From Chitinivibrionales bacterium (GTDB taxonomy: Bacteria; Fibrobacterota; Chitinivibrionia; Chitinivibrionales; JANQEN01), in contig JAUVGS010000186.1 in NCBI GenBank assembly GCA_030593665.1, positions 1 through 5,245 on the forward strand: a stretch of 5,245 bases of DNA. Direction: 5' to 3'. The number at the start of each line of letters is the position of its first letter. Position 1 is the first letter of the stretch. Positions 1 to 5,245 of this stretch are shown here, in pieces. Both the position numbers and the translations under genes were made by a program. Below the pieces are notes generated by a model. It saw nothing but the letters and a program-made list of their open reading frames with translations, was not told the DNA's origin and ran no database searches.

Positions 1-279
1 GGTAAATGTTGAATCGGTGAGATCTTCGATACCATAAATAAACCACCTGCTTGTAATACTTGATACACAAACAGCAACCAATTCTGAATACACTCCGGTC
101 TCAGCTTCATAAGCAATTTCAGCGGTATAATACTGCATCAATACCGTTGGGAATTCAGAAGCTTTTGCCTTATGAGAGGCATGGGTAAATTTAGGAATAG
201 CAACAGCAGCGAGAATTCCAACAATAGCGATAACAACCATTAATTCAACAAGGGTAAAACCTTTTTTTGTTAATTTCAT
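1..279 (-). CDS. Type IV prepilin / pseudopilin, N-terminal part (runs off the left edge)
   Basis: The first 93 residues of a type IV pilin-like protein are visible, and the frame stays open to base 1. The leader is short and basic (MKLTKKG). It is followed by the class III signal GFTLVELMVVIAIVG and then ILAAVAIPKF. Prepilin peptidase should cut after Gly7 and methylate Phe8, and Glu12 is the conserved Glu5 of the mature pilin used in assembly. Residues 8-30 form the hydrophobic N-terminal helix that anchors the subunit in the inner membrane and packs in the filament core. The next segment (HKAKASEFPTVLMQYYTAE) resembles the 'KASE' pilins I associate with Fibrobacter-type bacteria; that is from memory. 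AAGGGA about 8 bases before the ATG supports the start. The globular C-terminal domain is missing, so major pilin, minor pilin and type II secretion pseudopilin cannot be separated. Confidence 0.93.
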   Translation of the reverse strand, partial: MKLTKKGFTLVELMVVIAIVGILAAVAIPKFTHASHKAKASEFPTVLMQYYTAEIAYEAETGVYSELVAVCVSSITSRWFIYGIEDLTDSTFT

Positions 280-317
280 TTTGTTTCCCTTCTCATTACG
301 AGAATACACGATGATTG

Positions 318-393
318 GTACTTTTTGTTAAACGAGGTAAAATATAAAGTACAAATTCGGGGTATTAACTCCTTCCCGGACAGGTGTCTGTCC
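318..393 (-). other. Inverted repeats in the prepilin mRNA leader
   Basis: Two perfect inverted repeats lie between the predicted start of transcription and the prepilin ATG. The first is a hairpin with stem GGACAG/CTGTCC (378-383 and 388-393) and a 4-base loop. The second is a 7-base pair GTACTTT/AAAGTAC (318-324 and 346-352) around a 21-base spacer. Neither is followed by a T-run on the minus strand, so they are not typical terminators. They could affect leader stability or translation of the pilin mRNA; that role is inference. Confidence 0.4.
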
Positions 394-411
394 CGTAATC
401 TTTATAGCACT

Positions 412-447
412 ATTATAAATGGTACATGATTTGTGTAATAATGTCAA
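412..447 (-). promoter_or_regulatory. Sigma70-type promoter of the prepilin gene
   Basis: On the minus strand a perfect -35 box TTGACA (442-447) is followed, after 17 bases, by TACCAT (419-424). A perfect TATAAT (412-417) overlaps the downstream side and may be an alternative -10. A run of eight Ts (468-475) lies about 20 bases upstream and could act as an UP element. Transcription would start near 405-412, giving the prepilin an untranslated leader of about 130 bases. Confidence 0.6.
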
Positions 448-584
448 TGTTTTTATGAGAAAACCGGAAAAAAAATGAAAAAACAGAAATCATATTTCCG
501 AAAACGGTTATTCAGGAGCTTTCATATTCAGTTCATGGGATAATACGAGGTGACGTTAATAAAAGCAAGAATTATACTGTGTTA

Positions 585-722
585 TTAGTACCTTACAGAT
601 TGCTTTCTTGTTTTTTAGGTATTGGTTACAAATTTATTTGTTACAATACTTTATTCCGAATGCTTTCTTCGGTTAGAAAGGAATCTGATAAGGTACTTAC
701 TTGCGGGTTTATCCCGCGTTAG
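585..722 (+). repeat. Structured palindromic element, copy A
   Basis: The outer arms 585-607 and 676-699 pair almost completely: TTAGTACCTTA-CAGATTGCTTTC against the reverse complement of GAAAGGAATCTG-ATAAGGTACTTA, with two mismatches and one bulged base. Inside them are two further stems: 619-633 with 636-649 (GTATTGGTTACAAAT / ATTTGTTACAATAC) and CCGAA/TTCGG (656-660 with 668-672). Just outside the outer stem is a perfect hairpin, GCGGG-TTTAT-CCCGC (703-717), followed by GTTAG. Both ends are shared with copy B at 3574-3657 on the other strand. The whole lies directly downstream of the DUF4177-like gene's stop codon, so it could also shape the 3' end of that transcript. The orientation given is that of the AAGGTACTTACTTGC end. 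Confidence 0.75.
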
Positions 723-733
723 CGAAGTAATAG

Positions 734-1114
734 TTACTTAGGCCGCTTCATAATTATATAAAGATGTTCTACGGGCAGGGTTCCTGATCTGATACTCATG
801 TGGCTGGTAACACTCACAGATTCCCAGCCCTTTGCACCTTCGTCGTTTAAATAATTATACAGCGTTATGTCTGTCCAGTTTTTCTGTACCTTGCCGTTAA
901 CATAGTGAATTTTCCACGAAATGTCTTTGGGGAGGACAAATCCGAAGATGCCTTTTCCATGTTTTTCAGCTATTAGAAATTTATGTTCCCAGGTTTGCAT
1001 CATTAGTATGAGGTTAAGGGATAGTGATTTTAATTGATTACAGTAAGTTAAGCAGAAAGGCATGGAAATGGCCACTGCACAATTCGAATTGGAAATCAAT
1101 TTCCTAATTCTCAT
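734..1114 (-). CDS. Small DUF4177-like protein; start uncertain
   Basis: The reading frame is 126 codons, but only the last 88 or so look like a known fold. From Met39 it reads QTWEHKFLIAEK, then YNYLNDEGAKGWESVSV, and ends in LYIIMKRPK. This is the usual pattern of DUF4177-type small proteins: an N-terminal 'W-E-Y/H-K' strand, a 'LN..G.xGWE.V' helix-turn in the middle and a C-terminal '...LKRP' strand. Their molecular role is unknown. Residues 1-37 resemble nothing I know, and their DNA contains two perfect palindromes. The true start may therefore be Met38 or Met39 (1003 or 1000), leaving a long leader. No good ribosome binding site precedes either start; GAAAAG before 1114 is the better of the two. 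The gene has its own promoter and stands alone behind the repressor gene. No signal peptide or membrane segment is seen in the conserved part. Confidence 0.6.
   Translation of the reverse strand: MRIRKLISNSNCAVAISMPFCLTYCNQLKSLSLNLILMMQTWEHKFLIAEKHGKGIFGFVLPKDISWKIHYVNGKVQKNWTDITLYNYLNDEGAKGWESVSVTSHMSIRSGTLPVEHLYIIMKRPK
1080..1104. promoter_or_regulatory. Two adjacent perfect palindromes, possible operator
   Basis: CAATTCGAATTG (1080-1091) is a perfect 12-base palindrome with a central CG. It shares a base with a second perfect inverted repeat, GGAAAT-CA-ATTTCC (1091-1104). They lie 40-65 bases downstream of the predicted start of transcription of the DUF4177-like gene. LacI-family repressors usually bind palindromes with a central CG, and such a repressor is encoded just upstream, so this is a candidate operator. 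Binding by that repressor is inference. Confidence 0.35.
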
Positions 1115-1151
1115 TTGACTTTTCTGCTTCTACTTAATGTTATGCTTTAGT

Positions 1152-1180
1152 ATAATACTATCATGGTACAAATATGTCAA
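1152..1180 (-). promoter_or_regulatory. Near-consensus sigma70 promoter of the DUF4177-like gene
   Basis: On the minus strand a perfect TTGACA (1175-1180) is separated by exactly 17 bases from TATTAT (1152-1157), one mismatch from the -10 consensus. Transcription should begin near 1145, about 30 bases before the ATG at 1114 and about 140 bases before the alternative start at 1000-1003. Confidence 0.7.
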
Positions 1181-1187
1181 CTCAGGT

Positions 1188-1208
1188 TAATATCCAATAT
1201 CTAATATC
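1188..1208. repeat. Three tandem heptamers (YAATATC)
   Basis: TAATATC, CAATATC and TAATATC follow each other without a gap. They lie between the end of the repressor gene and the promoter of the DUF4177-like gene, just upstream of its -35 box. They may simply be slippage-prone AT-rich DNA. Confidence 0.4.
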
Positions 1209-1219
1209 TAAACAATTTT

Positions 1220-2215
1220 CTAGGCAGAATTCCTTATAATCAACTTGGTCTGCAACTCTTTGTGTTTAATTCCTGTTGTACGTCCTTCAATTTTATCAAT
1301 GATTAAATCAATAGCATGATCACCCATTTCAAGCTTTGGCTGCCTGACCGTAGTAAGTTCCGGTTCAATAACCTCTGCTGCCGGCAGGTCGTCAAATCCG
1401 ACAACCGCAAGGTTCCGGGGAGTAGGTATCTCGTTTCGTTTAGCCATTTTTATTATACCTATAGCGACCATGTCGCCGGCAGGAACAAAAATAGCAGTTG
1501 GTTTATTAGGGGAAGAATAGATTTTTTCAAACACAGCTTCTCCATCAGCCATTTTTTCGTCAGGAACTTCGAATACCAGACTGTTATCAAACGGGATGTT
1601 ATGAGATATCAGGGTCATTCTGTATCCATCAAGCCGGTCATCCATAGGCAGTATTCTTTTATTACAAACGACACAGGCAATGGTACGGTGTCCTTTCCCG
1701 ATAAGGTAGTCTGTTGCATCCTTTGCACCCTGGGTGTTGTTCACATACACCGAATCGAGTATATCACATCTTCTGGCCACTACAACGCATGGTACGTGTT
1801 CATCTTTAAAGACCCGAAGCTCCTTTTCCGAGCATGATGCCCCGATCAGAATTGCGCCGTCAATGCGACGCTCACGTGCGAGGCGTTGAAACAGTTGTGA
1901 TTCGGTTTCCTTCTGGCCGATAGTATCAAAGAGTTGAACCGTGTAATCAATATCCCTGTTGGTGCTTTTAATGCCCTGGAGTATGCGTACTACATACGAG
2001 GATGCAAGGTTTGGTACAATCACCCCGATGGCATTGGCTTTCCTTGTTGCCAGACCGCGTGCTATCGCGTTGGGATAATAATTCAACTCCCGTGCAATTT
2101 TTAGGACACGCTCACGGGTCCCCTCTGAGATGTTCGGCTTGTTGTTAATGACCATGGATACCGTTGCCGATGTTACTTTTGCGCGTTCAGCAATATCTTT
2201 TAATGTTACTGCCAT
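1220..2215 (-). CDS. LacI/GalR-family transcriptional repressor
   Basis: This 331-residue protein has the usual length and order of the LacI family. Residues 3-24 form the helix-turn-helix (TLKDIAERAKVTSATVSMVI), followed by the third helix (EGTRERVLKIARELNYYPN) and the hinge helix (residues 49-58, NAIARGLATR). The hinge helix inserts into the minor groove at the centre of a palindromic operator. From residue 61 on there is a periplasmic-binding-protein-like effector domain. It begins ANAIGVIVP, includes DRLDGYR (193-199), IFVPAGDMVAIGII (242-255) and VVGFDDLP (271-278), and ends with the family's LQTKLIIRNS tail. It should be a cytoplasmic dimer that responds to a small molecule, often a sugar. 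No transporter or catabolic gene is in view, so effector and regulon are unknown. A strong ribosome binding site supports the start. It lies 57 bases behind the DUF5683 gene and is probably co-transcribed with it; only a weak TTGATT/TATGAA promoter is visible in the gap. Confidence 0.97.
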   Translation of the reverse strand: MAVTLKDIAERAKVTSATVSMVINNKPNISEGTRERVLKIARELNYYPNAIARGLATRKANAIGVIVPNLASSYVVRILQGIKSTNRDIDYTVQLFDTIGQKETESQLFQRLARERRIDGAILIGASCSEKELRVFKDEHVPCVVVARRCDILDSVYVNNTQGAKDATDYLIGKGHRTIACVVCNKRILPMDDRLDGYRMTLISHNIPFDNSLVFEVPDEKMADGEAVFEKIYSSPNKPTAIFVPAGDMVAIGIIKMAKRNEIPTPRNLAVVGFDDLPAAEVIEPELTTVRQPKLEMGDHAIDLIIDKIEGRTTGIKHKELQTKLIIRNSA

Positions 2216-2218
2216 AGT

Positions 2219-2227
2219 TCCTTCCTT
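2219..2227 (-). promoter_or_regulatory. Ribosome binding site of the LacI-family gene
   Basis: The minus strand reads AAGGAAGGAACT directly before the ATG at 2215, giving two overlapping AAGGA sites. The upstream one (2223-2227) has a 7-base spacer, which is optimal. It is the clearest Shine-Dalgarno site in the window and fixes the start. Confidence 0.75.
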
Positions 2228-2272
2228 ATTAAAACACCTGTCATTTCAAATATAATTCATATCGCTATCACA

Positions 2273-3307
2273 TTAGAAATCAACATCCATTTTCAATTTT
2301 ACCGATTCGTTTTCAGTATCCAATTCCGGTCGCAGACGTATTTTAATTTTATAGTCATGAAGATGGGCATCAACAGCAGCATCAAAGACACCATAGAAAT
2401 AGAAGAGTACGAAATACCATAGATAGGTGTTTCTTTTTCTGAAGGCAATGTTGTGTTCTTCATCCCATCGAGCGATATACCATGTTTTCAAATCCGGCTG
2501 TTTATTAGACGAGACGGATTGTGTGGATTCAACCTGGTTGCGTTTATTTATACAGTCATTCAGGAGCCGGTTATAGTTGTATGACATATAGGCGAGAAGA
2601 GTATGGATTGTCAAGATGAGACCGGCTTTTGAATACGAGCCGTTGTATATCTGGCCCAGACCCAGAAATGGTATTGCAGAGAGCCATGCTGCCGCAGCGG
2701 GATTTCGCGGGTTGTTGTTTTTTAAAGCGTTACTACAGTCGAGTGCATCCCATATATTCCACAAGTAAAGCCCCGTCATCCATCCGACTCCATGATACGA
2801 AGCGTAGCGTGCGGTTCTCCGGCGGTATCTGGCAAGGTCGTACCCCATTTGAGCATCGATTAAATTGTCATAATGTTGCGTATATGCCGCCATATTTGGC
2901 GTATAGCACGAAAGGGTTTCCAGATGCTGATCTATCAAAAGGGAATAATCGTCTATTGGTTTTTGCAGGGTATATTTGTAGCGGTTCATACGATCGGTGG
3001 TGTATAATGTCCAGATAATTTCGGTACCCATAAAGAGAACACCTTTTACCCTTTTTCGGCAATATATCTGACCCAATCCCGGCAAAACAGCAGATAGTCC
3101 AACGGATTTCAACGGGTTATAGCAGACCGGTTCTGTTAGAGAGGGGTCGTCGGTAAGTTCTGTCGGCGGCATTACAAGTTCAAAGGAATCGGCAGAATCA
3201 GTTTGTAGAGAATCATGTAATACCGTTTCCGTATCGTTCGTATCCAGCGAATCCGTAAATGCCGCTTCTCCCAGAACAGTTAGTATAAGAAACAATATTG
3301 ATTTCAT
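2273..3307 (-). CDS. Exported/membrane protein with two tandem DUF5683 domains
   Basis: The protein has 344 residues. Residues 1-17 (MKSILFLILTVLGEAAF) look like a signal peptide. They are followed by an acidic Ser/Thr/Asp-rich linker to about residue 60. Two similar units come next. Unit 1 opens with KSVGLSAVLPGLGQIYCRK (67-85) and closes near RRRTARYASYHGVGWMTGLY and NIWDALDCSNALK (184-196). Unit 2 opens with AAWLSAIPFLGLGQIYNGS (206-224) and closes with KRNTYLWYFVLFYFYGVFDA and the DAHLHDYK ending (291-320). The 'PGLGQIY' turn and the 'DA.VDAHL.D' ending are the marks of DUF5683, a family I know mainly from Bacteroidota and Fibrobacterota, of unknown function and tied to the envelope. Hydrophobic segments near 87-103, 174-186, 226-242 and 295-308 suggest membrane association. 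No clear ribosome binding site precedes the ATG; the signal peptide supports this start. It is the first gene of a likely pair with the LacI-family repressor. Confidence 0.88.
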   Translation of the reverse strand: MKSILFLILTVLGEAAFTDSLDTNDTETVLHDSLQTDSADSFELVMPPTELTDDPSLTEPVCYNPLKSVGLSAVLPGLGQIYCRKRVKGVLFMGTEIIWTLYTTDRMNRYKYTLQKPIDDYSLLIDQHLETLSCYTPNMAAYTQHYDNLIDAQMGYDLARYRRRTARYASYHGVGWMTGLYLWNIWDALDCSNALKNNNPRNPAAAAWLSAIPFLGLGQIYNGSYSKAGLILTIHTLLAYMSYNYNRLLNDCINKRNQVESTQSVSSNKQPDLKTWYIARWDEEHNIAFRKRNTYLWYFVLFYFYGVFDAAVDAHLHDYKIKIRLRPELDTENESVKLKMDVDF

Positions 3308-3573
3308 TAATCACTGTGTTGTGCGGTGTATCAGAAATGATGTTGTTGGTTAGTAATAATTAGTTAAGCCCTTAAGCAATATAATACAAGCACGTTGTAA
3401 AAAGAAAATTTTACCGGAATAATATGAATTACGAGAGATGAATAAAAATATTCAGGAGGGTTATCACTTAGCCCGATTAATTGGCTCCCTGGCTTCCATG
3501 CGGTTATAATCGCCTCTGCTTCGCGGTCATAAACTTCGCCACAAAGCATGCCCTCGATTTTAATCGGGGGACC

Positions 3574-3657
3574 CTAACGCAGATAAACTGCAAGTAAGTA
3601 CCTTCACGAAATAATTTTCTGCCAAGAAATGGCAGAAAATTATTTCTAAGGTACTAA
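3574..3657 (-). repeat. Structured palindromic element, copy B
   Basis: Read on the minus strand, this copy starts TTAGTACCTTA (3657-3647) and continues with a perfect 17-base-pair stem (3630-3646 with 3608-3624) capped by a 5-base loop. Then follow AAGGTACTTACTTGC, a hairpin GCAG-TTTAT-CTGC (3591-3579) and GTTAG. The end sequences match copy A exactly: 11 bases on one side and 15 on the other, plus the TTTAT loop and the GCGTTAG tail. The core stem is unrelated to that of copy A. The stem has no T-run after it on either strand, so it is not an ordinary terminator. Copy B faces copy A in inverted orientation. Confidence 0.75.
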
Positions 3658-3751
3658 ATCATGAAGAATCTGGGGGAAAAAAAAGACCGTGTAAATTTAT
3701 TTTAATTGTAAGCAGCTCTCTGAATTTTATTATCCTTTACCCTATAGATAC

Positions 3752-3775
3752 TTAGTGTCTTCGTGTCTTAGTGGC
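3752..3775. repeat. Tandem octamer repeat (TTAGTGTC / TTCGTGTC / TTAGTGGC)
   Basis: Three octamers follow each other without a gap, differing at one or two positions each. From memory, similar 'TTTGTGTC/TTCGTGTC' octamer tracts occur between genes in many environmental bacterial genomes. Their origin and role are unknown to me. They lie just downstream of the receiver-ATPase gene. Confidence 0.5.
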
Positions 3776-3796
3776 GGTTGAATAATTCAAGTTAGA

Positions 3797-4708
3797 TTAA
3801 ATTTCGTTGATATAGAGCGGTTTAAATCCCTTGTATTTCTCATCGAGATAGTTTATAAAAATTGCTTCCGTAACCACATCTTTTTTGATGTTGATAATAA
3901 AGCGGTCTGAATAGATGCGGGACATATGAAGGCCTCTGCCGTCTTCATCCAGAAGGCCTTCGCCATGAATATGCCGATCTATTTTAAAGAGCGCCCGTTT
4001 CTTGGTCAGTTTTCCACTGGTGTCTAAAACAGAAACACCGTATTTCTCGGAATCCCTGCCGACATAGATTTTTACCGCCTCTGATTCGTCAAGCTCGATA
4101 GCGGAGTGTTTTCTATATTTTTCTTTACCGTTTTCATCAACGGGGGCATGGTACACCGCATTGGTAATAAGTTCTTCGAGAAGGATGTTGACAAACGGTT
4201 CTGCTTTGTGAAATCGTGAGATGAGATCGATAACATTATCTTCAACAGCACTAATCTGCCGGGAGTTGACAATCGTATATTCTCCCAGGACATTAAAGTC
4301 GGGAAGCATATAATTTTCAAGGCCGAAAATTTGTTCAGTTACCAGATTTTTGACGATAGAATTGAATTCATCGAAGTTGAATGGGGTGGATTTTGAAATG
4401 ATATTCGAGATATCATTTTCCTTTGCCATTCTTACGTAATCATTTACATTATACGCGGTGATGAGGGCTGTTCGGGTGCCGGGATATTTTTCCCTCACCT
4501 GCTTAATCAGCTCAAATCCTTTCATACCCGGCATGTTGATATCAGATATTACCAGGTCAATGGATTTTTCATTGAGAACATCGAATGCTTTCCCTGCGTC
4601 CTCTGCTGTATACACCTCATAGTGCCTTTCCAGCTCGACCTGGAGCATCTCACGAATAATTGCCTCATCGTCAACGATAAGAACTTTGCCAAACATTGTA
4701 TCGGCCAT
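3797..4708 (-). CDS. Response regulator: receiver domain fused to an RsbW-like (GHKL) ATPase domain
   Basis: This 303-residue protein begins with a complete receiver domain (about 7-124). The acidic pocket is D13-D14 in LIVDDE, the phospho-acceptor is D56 in ISDINMPG, the switch threonine is T84 in ALITAY, and the conserved lysine is K106 in ISKSTPF. A linker (125-170) follows, and then a HATPase_c domain. Its N box is ILLEELITNAVYHA (175-188, with E179 and N183), its G1 box is VLDTSGK (227-233), and its glycine-rich lid is GEGLLDEDGRGLHMS (249-263). There is no HisKA dimerisation segment, phosphorylatable histidine or DNA-binding domain. The ATPase part therefore resembles anti-sigma factor/serine kinases of the RsbW/SpoIIAB kind more than a histidine kinase. 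The inferred role is a cytoplasmic switch in which phosphorylation of D56 controls binding to, or phosphorylation of, a partner protein. No histidine kinase, STAS protein or sigma factor is in view. ATG at 4708 has no clear ribosome binding site; Met5 (4696) is possible. Confidence 0.93.
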   Translation of the reverse strand: MADTMFGKVLIVDDEAIIREMLQVELERHYEVYTAEDAGKAFDVLNEKSIDLVISDINMPGMKGFELIKQVREKYPGTRTALITAYNVNDYVRMAKENDISNIISKSTPFNFDEFNSIVKNLVTEQIFGLENYMLPDFNVLGEYTIVNSRQISAVEDNVIDLISRFHKAEPFVNILLEELITNAVYHAPVDENGKEKYRKHSAIELDESEAVKIYVGRDSEKYGVSVLDTSGKLTKKRALFKIDRHIHGEGLLDEDGRGLHMSRIYSDRFIINIKKDVVTEAIFINYLDEKYKGFKPLYINEI

Positions 4709-4736
4709 AATTTCGTATTAAGCAGGTTATAAATTT

Positions 4737-4765
4737 ATTGTAAGGATACAGTATACCTTTTGCAA
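4737..4765 (-). promoter_or_regulatory. Sigma70-type promoter of the receiver-ATPase gene
   Basis: On the minus strand TTGCAA (4760-4765) is followed after exactly 17 bases by TACAAT (4737-4742). Transcription would begin near 4730, about 22 bases before the ATG. A second, weaker candidate, TTGACT (4824-4829) with GATGAT (4801-4806), lies further upstream, also with a 17-base spacer. Confidence 0.6.
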
Positions 4766-4780
4766 CAGAATTTTCCTGTT

Positions 4781-4800
4781 ACAATACCATACAATACTAT
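4781..4800. promoter_or_regulatory. Two 10-base direct repeats upstream of the promoter
   Basis: ACAATACCAT is followed at once by ACAATACTAT, one mismatch apart. The pair ends 15 bases upstream of the -35 box of the receiver-ATPase gene. Direct repeats spaced by one helical turn in this position are typical of activator binding sites, for example of OmpR-type regulators. The identity of any binding protein is unknown. Confidence 0.35.
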
Positions 4801-4834
4801 ATCATCTTATCAGGAACGATAAAAGTCAATATTT

Positions 4835-5245
4835 TTATGCGAATATATCGCAATTCTGTGACAGGGTTGTGTCGGAAAACGGCACGCGAATTCCCTGTTT
4901 TGAATAAGTGGCTGTTTGAGGGGATTTATTACTATTTGAGGACTCATTCTGAGGATTGTTTTCGTTTTGCTCTGCTACTGCTTCTTCCCGTATTTCGGCG
5001 CTCGCCTGTACCTGCGTCTGTGATGCCTGGGCAGCCACGGCCCTGTCCTGAGCTGACGGTTGTGCCGGTGCAAGTGCAGCTTTACGCACGACCTGCATTT
5101 TCCGTACTGTAGCTTCAGGGTCTCCGCTTACCGCAGAGGAATCAATAGAGACTTCACCACCCACAGCATAACGTTTTCCATCAGGCCCGGTCTGGTATTC
5201 GAAGTTGGCACCACCGCGGACATACTGTCCGCCGGCAGAAATATG
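4835..5245 (-). CDS. SprA-related putative metalloprotease, C-terminal part (runs off the right edge)
   Basis: The last 136 residues are visible. The frame is open to base 5245, so the Met at 5164 is internal and is not the start. The visible part begins HISAGGQYVRGGANFEYQTG, continues PDGKRYAVGGEVSID, and then DPEATVRKMQVVRKAALAPA and PSAQDRAVAAQASQTQ. This order is characteristic of the SprA-related family, annotated as putative metalloprotease of the CJM1_0395 type. In that family an HExxH zinc motif runs straight into '.xAGGxY'. The first visible residue, His at 5243-5245, is therefore probably the last His of HExxH, with the rest just outside the window. The activity is predicted from the motif. 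The tail (from about residue 85) is rich in Glu, Asn, Gln and Ser, looks disordered, and ends CDIFA. The gene ends 126 bases before the receiver-ATPase gene, which has its own promoter, so the two are probably separate units. Confidence 0.9.
   Translation of the reverse strand, partial: HISAGGQYVRGGANFEYQTGPDGKRYAVGGEVSIDSSAVSGDPEATVRKMQVVRKAALAPAQPSAQDRAVAAQASQTQVQASAEIREEAVAEQNENNPQNESSNSNKSPQTATYSKQGIRVPFSDTTLSQNCDIFA

Follow-up and report, generated by a model that had tools for sequence, protein, structure and literature searches.

What kind of unit is a short, gene-less repeat with conserved ends, variable cores and a changing terminal hairpin, and what moves it? The question is raised by a 5,245-nucleotide window (contig JAUVGS010000186.1, positions 1 to 5,245), which carries two copies of such an element, copy A on the plus strand and copy B on the minus strand. 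We find that both copies, together with a third unit nested in copy A, belong to a family that is real, large and mobile and for which PATE-like or SMR-like, with exchangeable parts, is the best description. On balance, we regard them as non-autonomous, non-coding elements mobilized in trans; a Y1 HUH transposase acting on single-stranded DNA, in an IS200/IS605- or PATE-like manner, is the most likely agent.

Both shared ends of copies A and B were recovered by a repeat finder as inverted matches (585-608 with 3634-3657, 79%; 690-709 with 3585-3604, 90%), in agreement with the original prediction of two copies at these positions (Table 1). They have the common architecture TT-AGTACCTT ... AAGGTACT-TA-CTT-hairpin-G-TTAG, in which the first and last arms are predicted to pair over 8 bp, in a stem to which the left TTAG contributes its AG. 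The two long cores, originally described as unrelated, are better understood as two subfamilies, each with relatives, and the core of copy A is split by the nested unit. This third unit is built on the same plan, comprising one long and one short hairpin (CCGAA/TTCGG) and closing with TTAG, and its excision from copy A yields one continuous palindromic stem, CAGATTGCTTTCT/AGAAAGGAATCTG. Because shifted cuts around it fold with equal energy, its limits rest on the TTAGs. Those of copy A were set by homology with units placed through uninterrupted sites. By eye, units in genome G034 are related to copy A without the nested unit.

Relatives were abundant. A collection of 84,980 species, each represented by one genome, was scanned for GGTACTTACTTGC-N5-17-GCGTTAG, the right end. 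The scan gave 52 stretches, distributed over 51 contigs from seven metagenome-assembled genomes, and all 51 contigs are titled Desulfobulbaceae, Desulfocapsa or Deltaproteobacteria. Seven of 144 genomes of the class carry this exact end (28 times in G001, 14 in G003, 10 in G002, 3 in G034 and once each in G004, G006 and G007). The same pattern read backward, as a control, matched none of the 144; given this and the 52 stretches in Desulfobulbaceae-type contigs, the right-end pattern is not a chance match. BLAST with one copy gave 192 first-look candidates in G001, a 3.1-Mb draft genome and the richest carrier, 77 in G003 and 43 in G034, while G192, from another order, gave 74 candidates of the window-B subfamily (80-91% identical for the first 39 matches listed); 40 were scored in each of these four genomes. 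The further copies anticipated by the original prediction are thus present. The order of G192 is represented in our set by two genomes, G192 and G227, both of which match. A strict pattern of the full architecture was found in 2 of 395 genomes of the phylum, G001 and G192, a lower bound given that G192 yields one copy by pattern and 74 candidates by BLAST. We take this phylum to be Desulfobacterota. Copy B matches G192 best with an E value of 6.5e-20 (85% over 84 nt), and the relatives of copy A are the G034 units, which match over its first 26-41 nt only (83-91%). Element rows in the sets examined measure 82 to 173 bp, too short for a transposase gene. IMG/VR returned 0 matches to the right-end pattern and 0 to the full-architecture pattern, and phage and plasmid records gave no match to the element queries used.

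The position of the element in its flanks is well defined. It lies directly 3' of a TTAG that remains in the left flank, and tandem arrays share the TTAG, as in three near-identical copies 109 bp apart at L041:1274-1604 (minus strand). With slashes marking the unit limits, the consensus reads (TTAG)/TRCCTTA...core...AAGGYACTTA-hairpin-G-YTAG/. Among 68 left ends located without use of TTAG, 56 are preceded by TTAG (41 of the 53 without a preceding GTTAG), and the only other upstream feature of note is that C is under-represented at the next base. Uninterrupted sites were found for several copies. At L007, the copy sits inside another dispersed repeat, 15 uninterrupted copies of which equal the joined flanks in length with one TTAG. 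The L052 copy follows a gene with its stop codon inside TTAG; two uninterrupted orthologues read ATAG and CTAG, with the junction readable on the left only, as the right side is too divergent for alignment. A composite at L060, comprising an IS200 and a type-2 element copy, reads AAGCATTAG/.../ATCATTACTG in G001 against the intact site AAGCATCAAATCATTACTG in G149. The empty site seen for L078 is in agreement, but sequence divergence prevents placement of its junction, and the same holds for the empty site in L104. The proposal of a miniature mobile element moved in trans is supported.

At the uninterrupted sites, only TTAG is present twice, and the two tetranucleotides do not behave as the target-site duplication for which the original prediction had suggested a comparison. 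Among 36 readable G192 copies, which come from the top BLAST hits of a TTAG-containing query, all 36 have TTAG as their left tetranucleotide; on the right, TTAG is found in 10, CTAG in 7 and another sequence in 19 (41 loci were fetched; 40 copies had both inner ends, and 4 were dropped for lack of a readable 3' hairpin). Right CTAG accompanies the hairpin allele CCAG/CTGG in 6 of 8 copies, compared with 1 of the 28 others (Fisher p 9e-5). As the right tetranucleotide follows the hairpin allele and the left is constant, the former seems to be part of the element and the latter part of the target. This inequality argues against an ordinary 4-bp duplication, although any single site also fits a TTAG duplication and, copy by copy, duplication followed by decay would look alike. 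In 25 of the 36 copies, a G directly follows the right tetranucleotide, which may represent a +1 target preference or an extra element base.

The hairpins vary in sequence and remain paired. A right-hairpin stem of 4 bp or more is present in 88% of 83 rows, compared with 25% of shuffles; the set includes a few mis-ended or spurious rows, such as L032:7415 and L040. Type-1 copies were found by a pattern that fixes the outer GC pairs, so those pairs carry no weight as evidence, and other tails were reached via the left end. Distinct complementary 3' stems include GCAG/CTGC, GCGG/CCGC, GCCG/CGGC, CCGA/TCGG, CCAGC/GCTGG, CCCGG/CCGGG, GCGGG/CCCGC and ACTCC/GGGGT (one G-T). The G-C to A-T change and the gained pair that first distinguished copies A and B are one case of wide hairpin turnover. 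Across 25 G192 copies, the 27 named pairs form in 93.5% of cells, a percentage favored by drawing the structure from one of these sequences. Two-sided changes occur in 8 pairs and 27 cells, compared with 3.6 and 9.5 +/- 1.9 after shuffling (0 of 500 shuffles reached the observed values), and slid-structure controls reach at most 4 pairs and 10 cells. The stems are maintained by compensatory change, in support of the selection on structure that had been proposed. RNAalifold on 35 mixed copies (alignment A1) identifies the outer stem along with some of the right hairpin. The outer stem reads TACC/GGTA in 41 of 89 rows, TGCC/GGCA in 13, TGCC/GGTA in 11, TACC/GGCA in 5 and otherwise in 19, some rows being spurious; a strand inference from this stem was dropped, as the first search pattern forced GGTA. 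A movable hairpin block of ~27 nt (ACCCCTCAAGGGGGTACT...) is present within the tail of some copies and lies inverted in the left part of others (L082, L113, L136 and L223, among others).

How might such a unit move? The layout matches the single-strand IS200/IS605 route in that TTAG is kept on the left, the right cleavage tetranucleotide is internal, a hairpin adjoins it and a tetranucleotide stands at the hairpin foot. The element would move as folded single-stranded DNA, and the cuts, 3' of the left TTAG and 3' of the terminal YTAG on the right, would be the work of an HUH tyrosine (Y1-type) transposase acting in trans and recognizing the hairpins. By analogy with the guides of IS608, the CTTA sequences of the left end and of the 3' hairpin foot may base-pair with TTAG and thereby select the cleavage and target sites. 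CTTA is conserved at both element ends, and 3 of its 4 positions pair with TTAG, but we found no case in which guide and target had changed together. Under the IS608 pairing rule, a TTAG target calls for an AAAC guide, which is why we offer the guide role of CTTA only as a proposal.

Several observations weigh against this model. The CTTA:TTAG match is plain antiparallel, 3 of 4, unlike the IS608 geometry. The 15 uninterrupted L007-type repeats read TCGG (12), TTGG (2) or TTTG (1) at the target, none TTAG, so either the repeat had a different sequence there prior to insertion or variation at the site is tolerated, and a TTAG target before insertion is inferred. The covariation term of RNAalifold on A1 is small (-0.31, 3 of 11 pairs). 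The preference for folding on one strand is weak, with G-T in 21 cells and A-C in 8 (p 0.024), or 13 and 6 by position (p 0.17), once two pairs, 63-79 and the almost invariant T-G at 64-78, are excluded from both counts; element orientation relative to GC skew, a proxy for the replication fork, is not significant (39 of 67, p 0.22). No transposase gene was seen inside any element copy, and no IS200/IS605 transposon with matching ends was found among 30 Y1 loci by end scans keyed to type-1 right ends, which would miss other tails (L240 and L241 were inspected partly by eye). Finally, G001 has two IS200-size tnpA genes, and no gene of the greater RAYT size was seen in this draft genome.

The Y1 loci came from a search of nine genomes (G001-G007, G034 and G192) that gave 34 matches, 3 of them below the Pfam cut-off, with genes of both IS200 and longer RAYT size; 30 were fetched. 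An element or a piece of one lies near a Y1 gene at four loci, L056, L061, L060 and L054 (a 55-bp piece, 1.2 kb away), all with unmatched ends. At L060 (G001 contig 90, ~1366-2010), an IS200-type unit of 637 bp to the next element starts GCATTAG/TTTTCCAT-AAAC-hairpin and adjoins the left end of a type-2 copy. Its hairpins differ from those of the element, its full sequence was found only once in seven genomes of the genus, and, with TTAG followed by AAAC, the guide called for by the IS608 rule, and its place beside the type-2 copy, it may share the element's target. A RAYT-size Y1 gene (326 aa) at L061 681-2110 stands between two direct element copies, which by eye are part of a duplicated segment of ~230 bp. 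We set this gene aside as the partner, since it has its own, different flanking repeat (GGGGTCAAGTCCGC) and the two copies are part of the duplication; the IS200 of L053/L054 was set aside for its different ends (by eye). The L061 gene and the L060 IS200 are the nearest, though doubtful, leads to the transposase. Long copies with cargo were also sought in 20 regions fetched around unpaired ends, several of which proved to be whole copies with other tails, and no cargo-bearing unit was seen among them. Left ends without a near right end remain in L160, L161, L163 and L166, among others; by eye, the open reading frames of L160 and L161 resemble ordinary chromosomal genes, and at L163 the right end is upstream of the left end.

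The alternatives differ in which of these features they explain. Spread of a REP-type palindrome, as REP or REPIN, by a resident RAYT (TnpA_REP) is unlikely in our estimate, even though the copies are small, dispersed and hairpin-bearing as for REP/REPIN, RAYT-size Y1 genes occur in several carriers and one of them, at L061, lies between two direct copies. The hairpin foot lacks GT[AG]G, reading CTTACTT or CTTATC on one strand and CTAAC on the other (CTAGC and other forms in G192). According to PMC6006769, the hairpin feet of some Y1 subclasses are atypical, so a non-GTAG foot is compatible with a RAYT. The L061 copies fall within the duplication noted above and the gene has its own repeat, none of the 8 Y1 loci of G034 showed a two-ended element copy, and G001 showed no RAYT-size gene. 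The label REP-like, one of those first suggested, therefore holds only loosely, as the copies are whole two-ended units without that foot. A DDE-type miniature inverted-repeat transposable element with a 4-bp TTAG target duplication would account for each uninterrupted site taken alone, and the arms AGTRCCTT/AAGGYACT look like inverted repeats. We nevertheless consider it improbable: the right arm is not terminal but has the 3' hairpin outside it, an arrangement that is confined to one end and sets the element apart from DDE terminal repeats, and the G192 tetranucleotides (TTAG on 36 of 36 left but 10 of 36 right ends, the right following the hairpin allele) do not fit a duplication.

A structured RNA, or a retro-element spreading by reverse transcription, would fit the conserved fold and some G-T excess over A-C mismatches on one strand, yet we judge this very unlikely. 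No Rfam family reached its gathering score in the window; with E values up to 5, four sub-threshold matches were three microRNA families on the hairpin of copy B and rli41 at 231-298. RVT_1 gave 0 matches in G001 and 5 in the other four genomes searched, and a reverse transcriptase as a general partner was set aside because the richest carrier has none. The uninterrupted sites and the tandem and nested copies indicate DNA mobility, so the structured-RNA option of the original prediction is not upheld, and nothing found would point to an RNA function. Integron attC sites likewise have variable hairpins between conserved ends, and the GTTAG-terminated units are reminiscent of them. Even so, a folded attC-like site of a tyrosine integrase has, in our view, hardly any probability, for the far end lacks a complementary core, as had been argued at the outset, the TTAG repeat is direct rather than inverted, G precedes the tetranucleotide at only 15 of 68 left ends, and no cassette gene was seen in the copies read.

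The proposed transposition as single-stranded DNA by a Y1 enzyme has parallels among described systems. According to PMC3119063, the PATEs of Haloquadratum, related to IS605-type elements, are transposase-less, have near-terminal palindromes and make no target duplication. The present element shares these features with the PATEs, as well as a left targeting sequence of 4-5 nt, a short conserved terminal oligonucleotide, many copies and heterogeneous subfamilies. PATEs are described there as lacking inverted repeats; our element has a 3' hairpin and left and core stems, but its left palindrome is a long core-spanning stem whose inverted-repeat arms pair with the right half. PATEs are also archaeal, whereas the element is bacterial, and no IS605-type transposon with its ends was found. 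SMR-A of Haloquadratum, described in the same paper, resembles it in size (~110 bp), inverted repeats, absence of duplication and a mobilizer that is not known, but inserts into palindromes of PATEs and IS605-type elements, whereas the present element inserts 3' of TTAG and has a hairpin outside one repeat arm. IS608, as described in PMC5934647, keeps its TTAC target in the left flank and has a guide 5' of a hairpin, matching the element in insertion 3' of a left-kept tetranucleotide, a hairpin near the right end and a pairable tetranucleotide 5' of it. The element differs from it in lacking tnpA and tnpB, in a 3' hairpin allele that varies within a genome and in plain antiparallel pairing. 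REP, BIME and REPIN sequences with RAYTs (PMC8266576 and PMC6006769) are likewise high-copy hairpin repeats in genomes with Y1 genes, but the element lacks a GTAG/GTGG foot, consists of two-ended units and has no RAYT with cognate copies on both sides save the doubtful L061. Our search for a matching transposon gave none, and for this reason we do not claim membership in IS200/IS605. We found no description of the family in the literature, a search in which subscription journals were mostly not covered and which is thus weak evidence of novelty.

The distribution of parts raises a broader possibility. By alignment, the core of copy B is G192-like and its tail is of the Desulfobulbaceae type, and cores and 3' hairpins occur elsewhere in differing combinations. 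The window genes look like those of Fibrobacterota. The named relatives of its response regulator (among the best 120 of 1,171 matches) are Chitinivibrionales, Chitinispirillia, Chitinispirillaceae or Fibrobacterota, and the stronger named ones of its DUF5683 protein are Chitinivibrionales, Chitinispirillia and relatives, and Fibrobacter, besides two weak ones from Zixibacteria and Flammeovirgaceae; most matches to both proteins are unnamed, and this pointer rests on the named ones. From these genes and the Desulfobacterota relatives, the family probably spans two phyla. A bolder and rather doubtful proposal is that these are cross-phylum modular single-stranded DNA units, in which swappable cores and 3' hairpin cassettes are joined at a fixed CTTA guide that pairs with TTAG, and that a transposase carried by no copy reads their fold more than their sequence; copy B would then be a natural recombinant. 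With this family, the range of small mobile repeats of the single-strand type comes to include uncultured sulfur-cycling bacteria, probably across two phyla, and a varying yet paired 3' hairpin beside fixed CTTA and TTAG offers a testable model for a transposase that tolerates many hairpin sequences.

Table 1. Positions of the element copies and their parts within the window.
Feature	Positions	Strand	Basis
Copy A, whole	585-722	+	sequence read
Copy A, left end TTAGTACCTTA	585-595	+	sequence read
Copy A, right end AAGGTACTTACTTGC	690-704	+	sequence read
Copy A, left TTAG, target tetranucleotide in flank	585-588	+	TTAG before left ends of relatives
Copy A, inserted unit, with nested unit and right-end TTAG	589-722	+	limits by homology to relatives placed via uninterrupted sites
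Copy A, outer-stem left arm AGTACCTT	587-594	+	fold; alignment columns 3-10 pair with 89-96
Copy A, outer-stem right arm AAGGTACT	690-697	+	fold, alignment
Copy A, CTTA, 5' foot of 3' hairpin, candidate guide for TTAG	696-699	+	in 35 of 35 rows of alignment A1; putative guide role
Copy A, 3' hairpin GCGGG/TTTAT/CCCGC	703-717	+	stem of at least 4 bp here in 73 of 83 rows
Copy A, right-end TTAG, final 4 nt of unit	719-722	+	sequence read; right tetranucleotide tracks hairpin allele in G192
Nested unit GTATTGG...TTCGGTTAG, 58 nt, 3' of TTAG at 615-618	619-676	+	excision restores palindrome
Copy B, whole, ends as in A	3657-3574	-	sequence read
Copy B, left TTAG, target in flank	3654-3657	-	TTAG before left ends of relatives
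Copy B, inserted unit, G192-family core with Desulfobulbaceae-type 3' hairpin tail	3574-3653	-	match to G192, alignment
Copy B, 17-bp perfect core hairpin	3608-3646	-	repeat finder
Copy B, 3' hairpin GCAG/TTTAT/CTGC	3579-3591	-	sequence read, fold
Copy B, CTTA, candidate guide	3595-3598	-	sequence read; putative role as for A
Copy B, right-end TTAG	3574-3577	-	sequence read

Other repeats accompany the element. In 6 of 6 distinct places with both of its ends, a palindromic repeat of ~115 bp (ATTCTATGGTTGACAC...GTGTTAACCATATCAG) lies between TTAG and an element left end (L031 5986; L043 1719, minus strand; L172, L173, L178 and L179). Within the window, the stretch 3468-3573 adjoins copy B, follows a TTAG at 3468-3471 and contains CCCTCGATTTTAATCGGGGG and other inverted motifs, and is possibly another repeat. 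Positions 376-395 hold a short palindrome, GGACAG-GTGT-CTGTCC, which by eye resembles repeats near a RAYT-size gene in L058.

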